A DNA stretch of 13,884 nucleotides from Synergistaceae bacterium. Its GTDB lineage: Bacteria; Synergistota; Synergistia; Synergistales; Aminobacteriaceae. Position 1 is the stretch's first letter; each line of letters starts with the position of its first letter. Positions 7,204-13,862 of this stretch are shown here, piece after piece. The DNA lies in assembly GCA_009784305.1 (NCBI GenBank), contig WRBZ01000008.1, forward strand, positions 1 through 13,884. Reading direction: 5' to 3'. A model generated the notes under the pieces. It made no database searches. It had not been told where the DNA came from and saw only the letters and a list, made by a program, of their open reading frames with translations. Position numbers and translations under genes: made by a program.

Positions 7204-7307
7204 TGTTTAAACAACTCCTTGAATGAAATGAATTCAATCATTTTATACTTTTTTATAATAAACACATTATAATAGAGATAATAAAAATAATTGATTGGGT
7301 GATTAAA
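7203..7307. promoter_or_regulatory. Divergent promoter region between folK and alr
   Basis: This AT-rich gap must hold the promoters for folK (leftward) and alr (rightward). On the plus strand TATAAT occurs at 7254-7259 and 7268-7273, the second a good -10 candidate for alr; no convincing -35 is seen at the right distance. On the minus strand TATAAA (complement of 7242-7247) could serve folK. A perfect 12-bp palindrome, TTGTTTAAACAA (7203-7214), abuts the folK start codon, and TTGAAT/ATTCAA arms (7219-7224 and 7232-7237) form a second dyad. Either could bind a regulator, but none is identified. GGGTGA (7297-7302) five bases before ATG 7308 is the likely alr ribosome-binding site. Confidence 0.5.
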
Positions 7308-8432
7308 ATGGGAAAAAGTTTTCGCCCTACGCGTATGGAAGTTAATCTGAAAAACCTTCGCGCTAATTTTTGCAGCATACGTTCTTATGTTAAAGGGCGG
7401 GAAATTTACGCCGTAGTTAAAGCAAACGCTTACGGGCATGGAGCTGTAGAAACTGCGAACGCCCTTATTGAGGAAGGGTGCAAGTATTTTGCAGTTGCAA
7501 CCCCCGATGAAGCCATTGAATTGCGCAGCGCCGGCATAACGAATCCAATACTTGTTCTCGGAGCATACGAGTACAGTTCAGCCGAAGAATTAGTTCACCT
7601 CGACATAACCGCCGCATGTACGGATGTAAAATTTGCATTGGCAATGAGTAAAGCAGCGGAAAAACAGGGAAAAACAGCAAAACTTCACATAAAAATTGAT
7701 TCTGGTATGGGAAGGGTAGGATTCACTGTTAGTGAGTTTAAGGACGCTATAGAAAGGATTTTACCACTGTCATCCATTGATATTGAAGGAGTATTCACTC
7801 ATTTTGCAGCGGCTGACGAATCCCGTCCGGATTGGACAAACCATCAGTTCTCCGAATACAAAAAAGCTCTTACAATTATCAGGCAAAAAGGACTTAATGT
7901 AAAACGTCATGTTTGCAATAGCGCAGGTATATTGGGACATCCGGACAAACATCTTGATATGGTACGCCCCGGCATAGCTTTATATGGAATGATGCCATCT
8001 TCGGAAACTGTATGTGCGTATCCGATAACCCTGCTTCCAACGTTCGAAGTAAAAACCAGGATCGTTCTGATACGAAGCCTGCCAGCAGGCACAGGAATAA
8101 GTTATGGACTTCGTTACATAACACGAGGGAAAGAACACTTAGCCGTCTTGCCTATAGGATATGCCGACGGAATCACAAGAGCTTTATCAGGGAAAATGTC
8201 AGTACTGATACATGGCCAGCGCTGTCCTGTTGTGGGAACTATATGTATGGATCAGATGATGGTTAATGTGACCGGTATTGAAAATGTTAAAATTGGAGAT
8301 GAAGCAGTTATTATTGGTAAACAAGGAGATAATATCATTTTACCGGAAGAGATGGCTTATGAAAGAAACACCATAAATTATGAAATACCAACTATTATTC
8401 AGAGAAGAGTTCCAAAAATTTATATGCAATAA
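7308..8432 (+). CDS. alr: Alanine racemase
   Basis: Alanine racemase is a pyridoxal-phosphate enzyme that interconverts L- and D-alanine, supplying D-alanine for peptidoglycan. The fold-III PLP signature AVVKANAYGHG is near the start, with Lys38 as the Schiff-base lysine. The second catalytic base is Tyr266 in GTGISYGLRY. DSGMGRVGF, VFTHFAAADE, CNSAGI, MVRPGIALYGM, LPIGYADGI and GTICMDQMMVNV are further family motifs in correct order. The 374-residue length is standard. ATG 7308 is preferred over GTG 7299 because GGGTGA sits five bases upstream of it and it starts directly before FRPTRMEVNLKNL. It heads a same-strand run with pgsA and the M20 genes (23-base gap to pgsA), so its promoter may drive them all. 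Confidence 0.96.
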   Translation: MGKSFRPTRMEVNLKNLRANFCSIRSYVKGREIYAVVKANAYGHGAVETANALIEEGCKYFAVATPDEAIELRSAGITNPILVLGAYEYSSAEELVHLDITAACTDVKFALAMSKAAEKQGKTAKLHIKIDSGMGRVGFTVSEFKDAIERILPLSSIDIEGVFTHFAAADESRPDWTNHQFSEYKKALTIIRQKGLNVKRHVCNSAGILGHPDKHLDMVRPGIALYGMMPSSETVCAYPITLLPTFEVKTRIVLIRSLPAGTGISYGLRYITRGKEHLAVLPIGYADGITRALSGKMSVLIHGQRCPVVGTICMDQMMVNVTGIENVKIGDEAVIIGKQGDNIILPEEMAYERNTINYEIPTIIQRRVPKIYMQ

Positions 8433-9130: not shown

Positions 9131-10387
9131 ATGATTACAATAAGTGGGCTGAAAGATAATATTCTCAAGGAAATAGAGCATCTTGAAAGTGAGATGATAA
9201 AGTCTTTATGCCGTATAGTACGATTTCCAGCCGTATCCCCTCATAACGGAGGACGGGGAGAGGAAGCAAAAGCGCAGGAAATATCTAAAATATTAATAGA
9301 ACAGGGGCTTACAGAAGGTGCAGAATTAGAATGGATCAGGATACCTGATGAAAAATCGCATACCGGCAATCGCCCGTCTATAATTCTGCGTACGCCAGGG
9401 AAAACACAGCAGCGTCTATGGATATTATGCCATATTGACGTTGTATCTGCAGGTGACAGGTCATCGTGGAATAATGATCCGTTTGAACCTGTAATAAAGG
9501 ATGGAAAGGTGTATGCAAGGGGAACAAATGATAATGGACAAGCTGTAATAGCAATGATTTATGCGCTGAAAGCATTAAAAAATCTAAAAATAGTTCCGGA
9601 GTATGAAATATGTTTAGGGTTTGTAGCGGATGAAGAAACTGGGAGCCACTACAGTATTGAACCAATGGTAAATAATGGGATAGTAGATTTCCGAGAAGAT
9701 GATATGATCCTTGTTCCTGATGGAGGAGACAGCAAAGGGGACTTTATCGAGATAGCTGAAAAAGGATTATTACAGATAGAATTTACAATTATTGGGAAAC
9801 AAACTCACGCCAGCTCACCTAATTTGGGATCAAATGCATGCCGAGCGGCAAATATTTTGTCTGTAACGCTGGATGAAGAGCTGCATAAGGCTTTTCCTGA
9901 CTGTGATGAATTATTTACACCGAATAAATCCACATTTGAGCCTACAAGAAGATACACCAATGTTGTCAGTATTAACATTGTTCCCGGCGTGGAAAGAATA
10001 TCTTTTGACTGCCGGGTTCTTCCGCATATAAAACTTGACGATGTTATAAAAATTGCTGAAAAAGTTATGGAAAGTGTAATGTCACAAACCGGCGTCAAGG
10101 TGAAATTGAATGTAATAAACCGCAGTGACGCTGCTCCATGTACATCTCCAGATTCCACTGTAGCGAAAATTTTATCAAAAGCCATAAATGAAGTACTTAA
10201 TGTTAAACCCAGATTCGGAGGTGTAGGTGGAGGGACATTTTCTGCATTTTTCAGACATAAAGGGATTTCTTCCGTTGTTTGGGAGCAGAATACAGAAGGG
10301 CAGACACATCAACCTAACGAATACGCCATCATAAAATATATGCTCAACAACGCGAAAGTTTTTGCGTTGTTGATGTCAGGAGCATAA
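9131..10387 (+). CDS. M20 family metallo-hydrolase, copy A1
   Basis: This is a 418-residue zinc-dependent hydrolase of the M20 (ArgE/DapE/carboxypeptidase G2) superfamily, cytoplasmic, with no signal peptide. It resembles the subgroup, common in archaea and some anaerobic bacteria, that some databases misleadingly call 'diaminopimelate aminotransferase'; its substrate is not known to me. Active-site residues by family alignment: His101 and Asp103 (CHIDVVSAGD), bridging Asp134 (GTNDNG), general-base Glu168 and ligand Glu169 (DEETGS), ligand Asp197 (VPDGG), lid-domain His226 (GKQTHASSP), and ligand His393 (THQPNEY). All are present, so it should be active. The dimerisation/lid domain lies at about 215-325. 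It starts six bases after pgsA. An alternative reading is a dipeptidase or amidohydrolase of N-acyl amino acids; the sequence alone does not decide. Confidence 0.9.
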   Translation: MITISGLKDNILKEIEHLESEMIKSLCRIVRFPAVSPHNGGRGEEAKAQEISKILIEQGLTEGAELEWIRIPDEKSHTGNRPSIILRTPGKTQQRLWILCHIDVVSAGDRSSWNNDPFEPVIKDGKVYARGTNDNGQAVIAMIYALKALKNLKIVPEYEICLGFVADEETGSHYSIEPMVNNGIVDFREDDMILVPDGGDSKGDFIEIAEKGLLQIEFTIIGKQTHASSPNLGSNACRAANILSVTLDEELHKAFPDCDELFTPNKSTFEPTRRYTNVVSINIVPGVERISFDCRVLPHIKLDDVIKIAEKVMESVMSQTGVKVKLNVINRSDAAPCTSPDSTVAKILSKAINEVLNVKPRFGGVGGGTFSAFFRHKGISSVVWEQNTEGQTHQPNEYAIIKYMLNNAKVFALLMSGA

Positions 10388-10439: not shown

Positions 10440-10858
10440 ATGTTGTAGGCGTTAATATCGTTCCCGGGATGGAAAGGCTGTCGTTCGATTGTCGAGTGCT
10501 TCCGCATATAAATCTTGACGATGTTATAATGACGGTTATGGAAGTTATAGAAAAGGTAATGTCCCAAACTGGAGCCAAGATAGAATTTAGTATAATAGAA
10601 CGCGATGACGCTGCTGCAAGCACGTCCCCGAATTTAGACTTTTGGATAAAGCCATAAGTGAAGCGCTAAACATTGAGCCCGTATTTTGCGGTGCAGGAAT
10701 AGGAACTTTTTCAGTATTTTTCAAACGTGAAGGGATTCCTACCATTGTTTGGGAACAGAATACAGGCGGACTGGCGCAGCAGCCTAATGAATACGCCCTT
10801 ATAGAACACATGATCAACAACGCAAAAGTTTTTGCTTTGATGATGGCAGGAGGTTTAT
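10440..10858 (+). pseudogene. Decayed M20 gene, copy psi-B1 (C-terminal third only, frameshifted)
   Basis: Homology to the neighbouring M20 genes begins abruptly at VVGVNIVPGMERLSFDCRV (from about 10440), equivalent to residue ~278 of the full protein; roughly the first two-thirds are missing. The first segment runs in one frame to STSPN near 10635. There about 10 bases are missing relative to B2, shifting the frame. The second segment continues from LDKAISEALNIEP to FALMMAGG. The normal stop after AGG is lost, so that frame runs on to 10881, past the start of copy A2. The remnant has the B-type signatures GIGTFSVFF and LAQQPNEY. The 50-base AT-rich spacer before it (10388-10439) shows no similarity to the M20 genes. 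No plausible functional product is expected; its 3' end supplies the ribosome-binding site of A2. Confidence 0.88.
10848..10853 (+). promoter_or_regulatory. AGGAGG ribosome-binding site of copy A2, inside the pseudogene 3' end
   Basis: A perfect AGGAGG lies five bases before ATG 10859. The same bases are the former C-terminal Ala-Gly-Gly codons (GCA GGA GGT) of the decayed psi-B1 gene, so this bit of the remnant still has a job. It decides the start of A2 in favour of 10859 over ATG 10868, whose spacing would be 14 bases. Confidence 0.75.
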
Positions 10859-12121
10859 ATGGTGAATATGAGCAGAAATGAGCTAAAGGATAAAATTTTT
10901 CAGGAAATTGATAATCTTGAAAAGGTGATGATAGATTCTTTATGCAGTATAGTACGATTTGAGGCTGTATCACCACATCACGGAGGACAGGGAGAGGAAG
11001 CAAAAGCGCAGCAAATATCAAAAATAATTGATGAACAGGGACTTTCTGAAGGAGCAAAACTTGAATGGATTAGGATCCCCGATGAAAAATCGCAGACCGG
11101 CAATCGCCCGTCAATAATACTATACTGCCCTGGTAAAACGCAGCAGCGTTTATGGATGTTTTGCCATATTGATGTTGTATCCGCAGGCGACCGGATTTTG
11201 TGGAACACTGACCCTTTTGAACCTTTGGTAAAGGATGGCAGAGTATATGCAAGAGGAGCAAGCGACAACGGACAGGCTGGAATAGCAATGCTTTACGCTC
11301 TGAAAGCATTGAAGAATTTGAATATAACTCCGGAATATGAAATATGTTTAGGGTTTGTGGCGGATGAGGAAACGGGAAGCCGATACAGTATTGAACCAAT
11401 GGTAAATAAAAAAATAATAGATTTCCGGAAAAATGATATGATACTTGTCCCTGATGGAGGGAAAAGTGCAGGGGACTTCATACAGATAGCTGAAAAAGGA
11501 CTATTACAGATAGAATTTAACGTTTATGGAAAACAATGTCACGCCAGCACCCCTGATTTAGGGATAAATGCATGCCGCGTGGCTAATATGCTTTCCGTAA
11601 TGCTGGACGAAGCGCTGCATAAATCATTCCCTGACTGCGATGAATTGTTTACACCAGCTAACTCCACATTTGAGCCTACAAGAAGATATGCCAATGTTGC
11701 AAGTGTCAATGTCATTCCCGGAGTGGAAAAATTATCATTCGACTGCCGTGTGCTTCCGCATATAAATCTTGATGGTGTTATAGAAACAGTCGAAAAAGTT
11801 ATGAAAAGCGTAATGTCGCAAACTGGCGCCAATGTTGAATTAAACGTATTAAGCCGCCATGACGCTGCTCCATGCACATCTCATGATTCTGCTGTAGCGA
11901 AACTCTTATCTAAGGCCGTAAGTGAAGTGCTCAACGTAAAACCCAGATTCGGAGGGGTAGGGGGAGGGACTTTTTCAGTATTTTTCAGACATGAAGGAAT
12001 CTCTTCCATCGTTTGGGAGCAAAATGTTGACGGGCAGGCGCATCAGCCTAACGAATACGCCCTCATAAAATACATGCTTAACAACGCGAAAGTTTTTGCC
12101 TTAATGATGGCAGGATGGTAA
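10859..12121 (+). CDS. M20 family metallo-hydrolase, copy A2
   Basis: This 420-residue M20 enzyme is very similar to A1 along its whole length. All catalytic and metal positions are present: His103 and Asp105 (CHIDVVSAGD), bridging Asp136 (ASDNG), general-base Glu170 and ligand Glu171 (DEETGS), Asp199 (VPDGG), lid His228 (GKQCHASTP) and His395 (AHQPNEY). The C-terminal glycine loop GGVGGGTF is A-type, as in A1. It is therefore the active member of the intact A2-B2 pair. The start is set by AGGAGG at 10848-10853. The nine bases after the stop carry no strong new ribosome-binding site; AGGATGG at 12112-12118 within the last codons, 12 bases before the B2 ATG, is the nearest candidate. The substrate is unknown; with the TctB-like transporter downstream, an imported N-acylated amino acid or small peptide is possible but unproven. 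Confidence 0.9.
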   Translation: MVNMSRNELKDKIFQEIDNLEKVMIDSLCSIVRFEAVSPHHGGQGEEAKAQQISKIIDEQGLSEGAKLEWIRIPDEKSQTGNRPSIILYCPGKTQQRLWMFCHIDVVSAGDRILWNTDPFEPLVKDGRVYARGASDNGQAGIAMLYALKALKNLNITPEYEICLGFVADEETGSRYSIEPMVNKKIIDFRKNDMILVPDGGKSAGDFIQIAEKGLLQIEFNVYGKQCHASTPDLGINACRVANMLSVMLDEALHKSFPDCDELFTPANSTFEPTRRYANVASVNVIPGVEKLSFDCRVLPHINLDGVIETVEKVMKSVMSQTGANVELNVLSRHDAAPCTSHDSAVAKLLSKAVSEVLNVKPRFGGVGGGTFSVFFRHEGISSIVWEQNVDGQAHQPNEYALIKYMLNNAKVFALMMAGW

Positions 12122-12130
12122 ATAATAACT

Positions 12131-13387
12131 ATGAACAATAATGGACTGAAAGACGATATTTTACAGGAAATAGAATCTCTAAGAAACGAGATGACAAAGT
12201 CTTTGTGCCGTATACTCCAGTTTCCGGCTGTATCCCCTCATCATGGAGGACAGGGAGAGGAAGCTAAAGCACAGGAAGTATTAAAAATTATAAAAGAACA
12301 GGGACTTGGTGAAGGTGCGAAACTTGAATGGATAAGGATACCTGATGAAAAATCGCATACCGGCAATCGCCCGTCGTTAATTTTGTACACCCCCGGTAAA
12401 ACACAGCAGCGTTTGTGGATGTTTTGTCATCTCGATGTTGTATCCGCAGGCGACCGTACATTGTGGAACACTGACCCTTTTAATCCTGTGGTTAAGGATG
12501 GCAGAGTATATGCAAGGGGAGCAAACGATAACGGACATGCTGCAATTGCAATGATATACGCTCTGAAAGCGTTGAAAAATCTGAACATAACTCCGGAATA
12601 TGAAATATGTTTAGGATTTGTAGCGGACGAGATGATGGGGAGCCGCTACAGTATTGAACCAATGATAAGGAAAAAAATCGTTAATTTCAGTAAAGATGAT
12701 ATGATCCTCATTCCTGACGGTGGAGAGAACACAGGGAGCTTTATTGAAATAGCGGAAAAAGGATTGCTGCAGATGGAATTTACAGTCAGTGGGAAACAGT
12801 GTCACGCCAGCACTCCCGAATATGGGATAAATGCATGCCGGGTGGCGAATATTTTTTCCGTCATACTGGATGAAACGCTTCATAAAACCTTTCCTGATAA
12901 AAACGAATTGTTTTCACCGGAAGAATACTCTACATTTGAGCCAACAAGAAGATACATAAATGTTGTTAGCGCTAATGTCATACCAGGTTTCGAAAAGCTA
13001 TCGTTCGACTGCCGTGTGCTTCCGCATGTAAAGCTTGACGATGTTATAAAGATAGTTAAGGAAGTTATGGAAAATGTAATGTCTCAAACCGGAGCTCAAA
13101 TTGAATTTAGCATAGCAGAGCGCGATGACCCTGCTCCAAGAACGTCCCCGGATTCTCCTATAGCGAAGCTTCTAGAAAAAGCTATAAGTGAAGTGCTTAA
13201 CGTGAAGCCCAGATTTGGCGGTTGTGGAATAGGTACTTTTTCAGTGTTTTTCAGACATGAAGGGATCCCAACAGTTGTTTGGCAGCAAAATACTAGCGGA
13301 TTGGCGCAACAACCTAATGAATATGCTGAAATTGAACACATGACCAACAATGCAAAAGTTTTTGCTTTGGTGATGGCAGGAGGATAA
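12131..13387 (+). CDS. M20 family protein with altered zinc site, copy B2
   Basis: The 418-residue protein keeps the full M20 fold and length, but its active site is changed. Retained: His100 and Asp102 (CHLDVVSAGD), bridging Asp133 (ANDNG), general-base Glu167, Asp196 (IPDGG) and lid His225 (GKQCHASTP). Changed: the ligand Glu after the general base is Met168 (DEMMGS instead of DEETGS), and the C-terminal ligand His is Gln393 (AQQPNEY instead of AHQPNEY). The glycine loop reads GCGIGTF rather than GVGGGTF. In carboxypeptidase G2 and DapE the two lost positions bind the same zinc ion, so B2 should hold one metal or be inactive. The frame is open and clean, so it is not simply decaying. It could be a partner subunit of A2, a mono-zinc enzyme, or a binding protein. 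Its final codons GCA GGA GGA contain the ribosome-binding site of tctB. Confidence 0.88.
   Translation: MNNNGLKDDILQEIESLRNEMTKSLCRILQFPAVSPHHGGQGEEAKAQEVLKIIKEQGLGEGAKLEWIRIPDEKSHTGNRPSLILYTPGKTQQRLWMFCHLDVVSAGDRTLWNTDPFNPVVKDGRVYARGANDNGHAAIAMIYALKALKNLNITPEYEICLGFVADEMMGSRYSIEPMIRKKIVNFSKDDMILIPDGGENTGSFIEIAEKGLLQMEFTVSGKQCHASTPEYGINACRVANIFSVILDETLHKTFPDKNELFSPEEYSTFEPTRRYINVVSANVIPGFEKLSFDCRVLPHVKLDDVIKIVKEVMENVMSQTGAQIEFSIAERDDPAPRTSPDSPIAKLLEKAISEVLNVKPRFGGCGIGTFSVFFRHEGIPTVVWQQNTSGLAQQPNEYAEIEHMTNNAKVFALVMAGG
13378..13383 (+). promoter_or_regulatory. AGGAGG ribosome-binding site placing the tctB start at ATT 13392
   Basis: A perfect AGGAGG lies within the last codons of M20 copy B2, exactly eight bases before the ATT codon at 13392. 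No ATG, GTG or TTG in the tctB frame lies between this site and ATG 13482, which is about 100 bases away and has no comparable site. The position supports ATT as initiation codon, or an ATG-to-ATT change. Confidence 0.65.
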
Positions 13388-13391
13388 AGAG

Positions 13392-13862
13392 ATTAGAATA
13401 ATTGGTGTAATTGTTTTCATAACGGGTGCAATTTACGCAGCCCGTGCGTTTACACTGATAAGGATCACAGGCGAATCACCTATGACCAACACATATCCAT
13501 TCATCCTCGGAATTTTATTATGTATGAGTGCATTGGGAATTTATATTTTCGGAAATGAAAAAAAATCATATTTTCATTGCAGCAAAACTGAGTTAATCCT
13601 CACGCTGATATGCTCAATTGTTTTCGCTTTAATATTCGAGAAAACAGGAACCATTAAAGCCTCATTCATATTTTCATTCATATTGGGAACCATATGGAAC
13701 CGCAAAGTCCCCGTGTCAGAAGAATCTACCCCAAAATCAGGTTTTATAGCATACCTTACGACTAATACAAAGAATATAGCGGAAAACATTCTTGCGTCAT
13801 GCATAAGTTCAGCGGGAATATGGCTGGTTTTTGAAAGGATATTCAGATTATCGCTGCCATGA
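13392..13862 (+). CDS. TctB-like small membrane subunit of a tripartite tricarboxylate-type transporter
   Basis: TctB proteins are the small four- to five-helix membrane subunits that pair with the large TctA permease and a periplasmic TctC binding protein to import carboxylates. Taken from ATT 13392 the protein has 156 residues, normal for the family. Membrane segments lie at about 3-24 (IIGVIVFITGAIYAARAFTL), 35-54, 65-82, 84-100 and 132-150. Between the first two, TNTYPFILGILL resembles the place where TctB proteins have a Pro-rich turn before helix 2. Using ATG 13482 would give 126 residues and delete helix 1, although the upstream codons clearly encode such a helix. The start lies four bases after the B2 stop, and the 3' end overlaps the next ATG (ATGA), the usual tctB-tctA coupling. 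Family assignment is by topology and order; TctB sequences diverge strongly. Confidence 0.7.
   Translation: MRIIGVIVFITGAIYAARAFTLIRITGESPMTNTYPFILGILLCMSALGIYIFGNEKKSYFHCSKTELILTLICSIVFALIFEKTGTIKASFIFSFILGTIWNRKVPVSEESTPKSGFIAYLTTNTKNIAENILASCISSAGIWLVFERIFRLSLP

Follow-up and report, generated by a model that had tools for sequence, protein, structure and literature searches.

The M20 gene array and its damaged member

The window analysed here is the whole of contig WRBZ01000008.1 (13,884 nucleotides) of a Synergistaceae bacterium, which belongs to an uncultured Synergistota lineage, taken from an incomplete assembly (GCA_009784305.1; 1,376,256 bases, 272 contigs, 78% complete). An alanine racemase gene and a CDP-alcohol phosphatidyltransferase (pgsA-like) gene are followed by a tandem array of M20 metallo-hydrolase genes in the order A1, psiB1, A2, and B2 (Table 1). 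B2, the subject of this analysis, starts 9 bases past the A2 stop (12121 to 12131), placing an intact and a damaged paralogue side by side. A2 appears to be active, as judged from its residues only.

Table 1 Features of the M20 array in the window, with the damaged paralogue B2 listed first.
Feature	Position	Strand	Basis
B2, M20 paralogue with damaged active site	12131..13387	+	uninterrupted 418-residue open reading frame
B2 codon 168, ATG (Met), second-zinc ligand position (Glu145 in ArgE)	12632..12634	+	GAA in A1 and A2
B2 codon 367, ATA (Ile), in GGGT loop	13229..13231	+	alignment
B2 codon 393, CAA (Gln), second-zinc ligand position (His355 in ArgE)	13307..13309	+	His in A1 and A2
B2 dimerisation/lid domain, residues 207-316	12749..13078	+	PF07687 match; His225 and Asn282 kept
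A1, intact M20 metallo-hydrolase (NF010589/PRK13983)	9131..10387	+	every metal ligand present
psiB1, frameshifted C-terminal third of a second B-type copy	10440..10853	+	nucleotide identity, GAGIGTFS, LAQQPNEY
A2, intact M20 metallo-hydrolase paralogue	10859..12121	+	open reading frame, NF010589 score, residues

The proteins A1, A2, and B2 all exceed the cut-offs of NF010589, PF01546, and PF07687. B2 scores 94.4 bits with PF01546 (cut-off 24.6), 56.5 bits with PF07687 (cut-off 21), and 458 bits with NF010589 (PRK13983), for which the curated equivalog cut-off is 333. The structure predicted for B2 has the M20 fold, with a catalytic and a dimerisation domain, at a predicted local distance difference test (pLDDT) score of 82.4; values below 50 occur at residues 35-39, 168-170, and 272-279.

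Active-site residues in B2 and across the family

Active dinuclear M20 hydrolases carry a five-ligand set (His, Asp, Glu, Asp/Glu, His) together with a general base and a lid His. In E. coli ArgE, which like H. influenzae DapE (HiDapE) is a dinuclear M20 deacylase, Glu145 and His355 are described as ligands, alongside the bridging Asp, of the second zinc (PMC11270798). B2 differs from both enzymes in lacking the equivalents of these two residues and one loop Gly: its ligand set is incomplete at Met168 and Gln393. In the alignment of A2 with HiDapE, DEE pairs with DEE and HQPNE with HKVNE; in that of B2 with E. faecium DapE, Met168 faces Glu and Gln393 faces His. An earlier note on this DNA had claimed the loss of both second-zinc ligands in a clean frame and had named another Glu and His at those positions as fatal to the idea; the codons and the uninterrupted frame bear the claim out, and the pairwise DapE alignments of A2 and B2 place no substitute Glu or His at 168 or 393. 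As it had also said, the other ligands (His100, Asp133, and Asp196), the general base Glu167, and the lid His225 are present in B2. Its comparison of DEMMGS in B2 with DEETGS in A1 and A2 stands for the loss of Glu168 and falls for Met169, since DEEMGS is the family norm (e.g., P0002, P0017-P0019, and P0023); Met169 is therefore ancestral, the Thr at 169 in A1 and A2 is derived, and only Glu168 has changed. Its further view that the loss is confined to one metal site proved too narrow, for the GGGT loop, found in 206 of 213 homologues, reads GIGT in B2 (Gly367 to Ile). Chance was rejected as the source of the Met168/Gln393 pair, and so was a read error, which the note had already dismissed: both residues recur in P0001, a near-copy listed on a different contig (38,894 bases) whose single difference from B2 is Ile/Val at residue 241.

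The 213 homologues were pooled from three protein searches (the best 120 of each), which take in proteins 0.55 to 1.75 times the query length, so that broken copies would be missed; P0003 and P0009, which are A2 and A1 of the array, were left out of trees and conservation counts. The full set at 13 positions is carried by 204 homologues, two have alignment gaps (P0096 and P0209), and seven are damaged (P0001, P0005, P0014, P0015, P0016, P0020, and P0021). Glu168 and His393 are both kept in 205, the rest being the seven damaged proteins and P0209, which has a gap at 167-168. All seven damaged homologues belong to one clade of about 70% identity, with none outside it among the 213, and a profile built from the damaged group retrieved no eighth among its best 120 matches. 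The six besides P0001 are full length, and their existence led us to reject B2 as a local one-off. Among the 97 loci of relatives, Glu168 is encoded in 69/69 distinct stretches (two of them partial, one with GGA for GGG) and His393 in the 68/68 that reach it; L001 and L031, which represent the window's own locus, were left out of this comparison.

The extent of damage varies within the group. His393 (Gln in five, Phe in two) and Gly367 are lost in all seven, and Glu168 in six, where only aliphatic residues replace it (Met, Ile, Val, Leu, Ile, and Met); P0016 retains both glutamates, Glu167 and Glu168. Further losses affect Gly368 (5/7), the general base Glu167 (4/7), the bridging Asp133 (2/7), and the first-site Asp196 (2/7). 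His100, Asn282, Arg295, Gly366, and Thr369 are kept in all seven, and His225 in six. The earlier note had held that B2 orthologues with an intact Glu and His would speak against it; none occurs among the proteins found, as no damaged member has His393 and Glu168 is seen in P0016. The B-type proteins share length and domains with the single-copy PRK13983/NF010589 relatives, but the intact relatives keep Glu168, His393, and GGGT whereas the B-type proteins do not. Because of these missing residues, the hydrolase name of NF010589 may mislead for B-type proteins; the six other damaged homologues score 393-449 bits, also above 333, and the NCBIfam equivalog would label such catalytically doubtful proteins as hydrolases.

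Selection on B2 and origin of the damaged group

The ratio of nonsynonymous to synonymous change (dN/dS, or omega) indicates purifying selection on B2. Pairwise Nei-Gojobori (NG86) values are 0.185 for A1-A2, 0.182 for A1-B2, and 0.175 for A2-B2. When B2, the one damaged member to which these estimates refer, was given its own omega in a codon model, the value was 0.189 on both the A and the B2 branches, and fixing the B2 value at 1 cost 25.5 log units (twice the log-likelihood difference, 50.9) and was rejected. The value of 1 was still rejected without the conversion tract described below (48.9; omega 0.191 for B2 and 0.207 for A) and without both the tract and the active-site segments (39.1; 0.193 and 0.218). 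In the lid, omega is 0.145 for B2 and 0.235 for A. B2 thus combines two marks of a pseudoenzyme, having lost the family-conserved catalytic residues Glu168 and His393 while being maintained by selection, and the earlier note's preference for a selected change over decay is supported for B2.

Distances from the clade ancestor, over catalytic columns outside the active site, are 0.27 for B2, 0.25 for A1, and 0.21 for A2; over the lid they are 0.28, 0.26, and 0.28. Subtree-length ratios of the damaged to the intact group, which are of unequal size, are 0.57 for the catalytic part with the active site left out and 0.71 for the lid. The fragments P0022 and P0096 were left out of the subtree-length and ancestor-distance analyses and of the tree without residues 85-172. 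Across the seven B proteins (B2 standing in for P0001), 280/294 cells in the lid and 499/608 in the catalytic part are kept at 129 family-conserved sites; the intact clade keeps 661/672 and 1280/1340. Judged by sequence, the B proteins keep the fold and the family-defining lid residues and have lost the chemistry residues, and nothing indicates special guarding of the lid overall.

Changes shared between A and B2 were also compared with expectation. At catalytic sites, A2 and B2 share 9/208 (2.2 expected) and A1 and B2 share 8/208 (2.0 expected), which may reflect variable sites or conversion; at lid sites each pair shares 2/83 (1.0 and 0.9 expected), with no clear excess. In this A-B coevolution test only residue 245 stands out, being Thr in A1, Met in A2, and Ile in B2, a pattern attributable to conversion or interface coevolution. 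Residue 245 (B2 numbering) is a family-conserved lid-helix Glu, found in 12/12 other intact clade members compared, and P0002 and P0005 retain it.

With the active-site columns removed, the damaged proteins form one group (support 81/84; 84% of 200 bootstrap trees), implying one change, and a single origin appears likelier than two or more. Within the array, A2 and B2 share third-position bases above the rest of the genes at codons 89-159 of the alignment (p 0.0022, uncorrected for the three comparisons made). This stretch is likely an A2-B2 gene conversion tract; its A2 side covers 11123-11335 and ends some ten codons short of position 168, where the ligand is lost. The remnant psiB1 is truncated at its 5' end and frameshifted, with nucleotide identities of 79% to B2 (10 gap columns), 74% to A2, and 73% to A1; it bears the B-type GAGIGTFS and LAQQPNEY, and a PF01546 match at 10618-10845 lies under the cut-off. 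Its place between A1 and A2 means that a B-type copy once stood behind A1 too. The psiB1 tail bears AGGAGG (10848-10853), five bases ahead of the A2 start at 10859, and psiB1 may persist because this tail carries the putative ribosome-binding site of A2.

Candidate roles of B2 and further features of the locus

We propose that B2 is a maintained M20 pseudoenzyme, lost to hydrolase chemistry and working most likely through pairing with an intact A subunit, a reading to which we assign a probability of about 0.47. B2 is probably a non-catalytic partner or regulator and not a dying gene. The B-type group would have arisen by duplication of M20 (PRK13983-type) genes inside one Synergistota lineage, with the fold kept. 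Glu168, His393, and the loop Gly367 would then have gone, in losses shared by the relatives, while purifying selection continued to act on the B2 gene as on its intact neighbours. From the ArgE work, B2 would be expected to lack a useful rate of normal two-metal hydrolysis. It would instead act through its dimerisation domain, most likely paired with an intact A subunit, whose cleft would be closed by the B2 lid (His225 and Asn282 in trans), supplying, limiting, or tuning the half-enzyme. A-B pairing seems the most likely mode given the 9-base gap between the genes, the retention of conserved lid residues alongside loss of the metal centre, and the position of psiB1 behind A1.

Studies of related enzymes give this proposal its biochemical background. 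The ArgE variant H355A is reported to have undetectable zinc activity, to which, as its authors caution, assay conditions may contribute, along with a 380-fold lower turnover number (kcat) with cobalt and weakened zinc binding (dissociation constant 39 vs 2.7 μM; PMC4320195). In modelling of HiDapE, the active site receives His194 and Asn244/245 from the partner chain, with Arg258 and Thr325 acting in cis (PMC5919655, PMC10815964), and removal of the dimerisation domain is reported to abolish DapE activity (PMC4012986). The residues aligned with HiDapE His194 and Asn245 are His225, kept in 6/7 damaged homologues, and Asn282, kept in 7/7. The lid-donating partner put forward in the earlier note is compatible with this conservation and is a possible role. 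A specially protected lid, as proof of such donation, found no support given the rate of lid change in the damaged group (see below), although at the family-conserved sites the lid seems the better preserved part. A precedent is the inactive alpha subunit of the mitochondrial processing peptidase, which has prokaryotic two-gene M16B homologues (PMC11266112); the damaged B2 beside A2 resembles that arrangement, although these peptidases belong to a different family and the A-B complex is here a putative one. In a stricter version, which we regard as doubtful, the A:B heterodimer would have become obligate and only one of its two sites would be alive: B would give its lid and the oxyanion His/Asn to A, and the second-zinc site of the dead subunit would have turned aliphatic, making the pair an M20 counterpart of the M16 alpha/beta processing peptidases.

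Several observations weigh against the pairing of a maintained pseudoenzyme with A. P0005 has Gln at the lid His225. All seven damaged homologues also retain Arg295 and Thr369, the residues with a cis role in DapE, a feature that suits a binding protein equally; the conservation pattern therefore does not single out lid donation. Without residues 85-172, which include the conversion tract, support for the damaged group drops to 65/33 (68% of bootstraps), though B2 with P0005 (89/88) and the other five (96/92) still group. The approximately unbiased (AU) test does not reject B2 with A1/A2 (p 0.21; 0.26 without residues 85-172) or B2 with A1/A2 plus P0002 (p 0.37). In the C-terminal catalytic part, omega is higher for B2 (0.246) than for A (0.202), part of the B2 branch predates the loss of the active site, and A2-B2 conversion could keep B2 tidy. 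Mean ancestor distances of 7 damaged rows relative to 13 intact rows, with P0018 left out, give ratios of 1.66 for the lid without active-site segments (1.65 with them) and 1.24 for the catalytic part (1.57 with them). From the latter contrast, the extra change in the catalytic part is concentrated at the active site; the damaged group shows mild relaxation or change in the lid too.

The earlier note's other suggestion, a mono-zinc enzyme, is unlikely. The tighter metal site (His100, Asp133, and Asp196) and the general base are intact in B2, which might use them for a slower or different one-metal reaction. However, the ArgE variant without the equivalent His had no measurable zinc activity, within the assay limits noted above, and bound zinc more weakly; Gly367 is also lost in B2; and the kin show further losses of the general base, the bridging Asp, and the first-site Asp that could hardly be afforded with one metal. 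Moreover, most B proteins share an otherwise rare residue at three positions, of which Gln393 alone belongs to the metal site. It is quite unlikely that B2 is a stand-alone binding or sensing protein, whose homodimers would hold substrate or product uncleaved through Arg295, Thr369, and Asn282 and serve as a sensor or store. By alignment, these three residues, invariant in the damaged homologues, correspond to HiDapE Arg258, Thr325, and Asn245, which are modelled as binding the substrate carboxylate (PMC5919655), but B2 has no added domain, and Gly367 and Gly368 are altered differently among members, which would be unexpected for one precisely bound ligand. Finally, an early pseudogene of the tandem array, held open by chance and by conversion from A2, would fit the fate of psiB1, the conversion tract, the varied damage among kin, and the raised rates outside the active site (1.24 to 1.66 times the intact rate), yet it is improbable given that B2 has the omega of A (0.19) with 1 rejected also without the tract, that six more damaged homologues are full length (though the search length window would miss broken copies), that the ancestor distance of B2 is no larger than those of A1 and A2, within about a quarter, and that Glu168 is replaced by aliphatic residues only.

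Several metallopeptidase families are known to include maintained pseudoenzymes, and B2 would add M20 to them. As in known pseudometallopeptidases (M12, M14, M24, and others), catalytic residues are lost in B2 while fold and selection are kept. We found no described case of a maintained M20 pseudoenzyme in the openly licensed literature searched. In a 2024 review of pseudometallopeptidases, M20 occurs twice, both times inside a digital object identifier string (PMC11266112); the "non-peptidase homologues" of M20 in two other papers are active acylases such as ArgE and not dead enzymes (PMC11511702, PMC10122368), and the "pseudopeptidase" of a further paper that mentions the M20 family refers to other families (PMC11241649). 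With its two intact copies, a third that is damaged yet under selection, and a dead remnant, the array forms a natural set to which six graded homologues can be added; it is suited to asking in what sequence a two-metal site comes apart and what later sustains selection.

Turning to the wider locus, of the family's 80 other genomes 56 gave M20 matches at an E value of 1e-60, with one match in 55 and two in G017, and a scan of genome contigs yielded no relative exceeding 55% identity. The sister genome G001 gave no array match, which is uninformative because the same assembly also gave no pgsA match. In 9 of the 97 relatives' loci, some of which are incomplete, a pgsA match lies just upstream of a single M20 gene (L029, L074, L076, L080, L081, L083, L087, L098, and L099), so the pgsA-M20 order is probably older than the M20 duplication. 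A second alanine-racemase-like gene is located at G000:C202:13-1122, with 44% identity to the copy at 7299-8432. The open reading frame after B2 (13386-13862) encodes a TctB-like transporter subunit (PF07331). Upstream of the ATG at 13482 its frame stays open as far as the B2 stop and contains no further ATG, GTG, or TTG, and an ATT follows AGGAGG at the end of B2.
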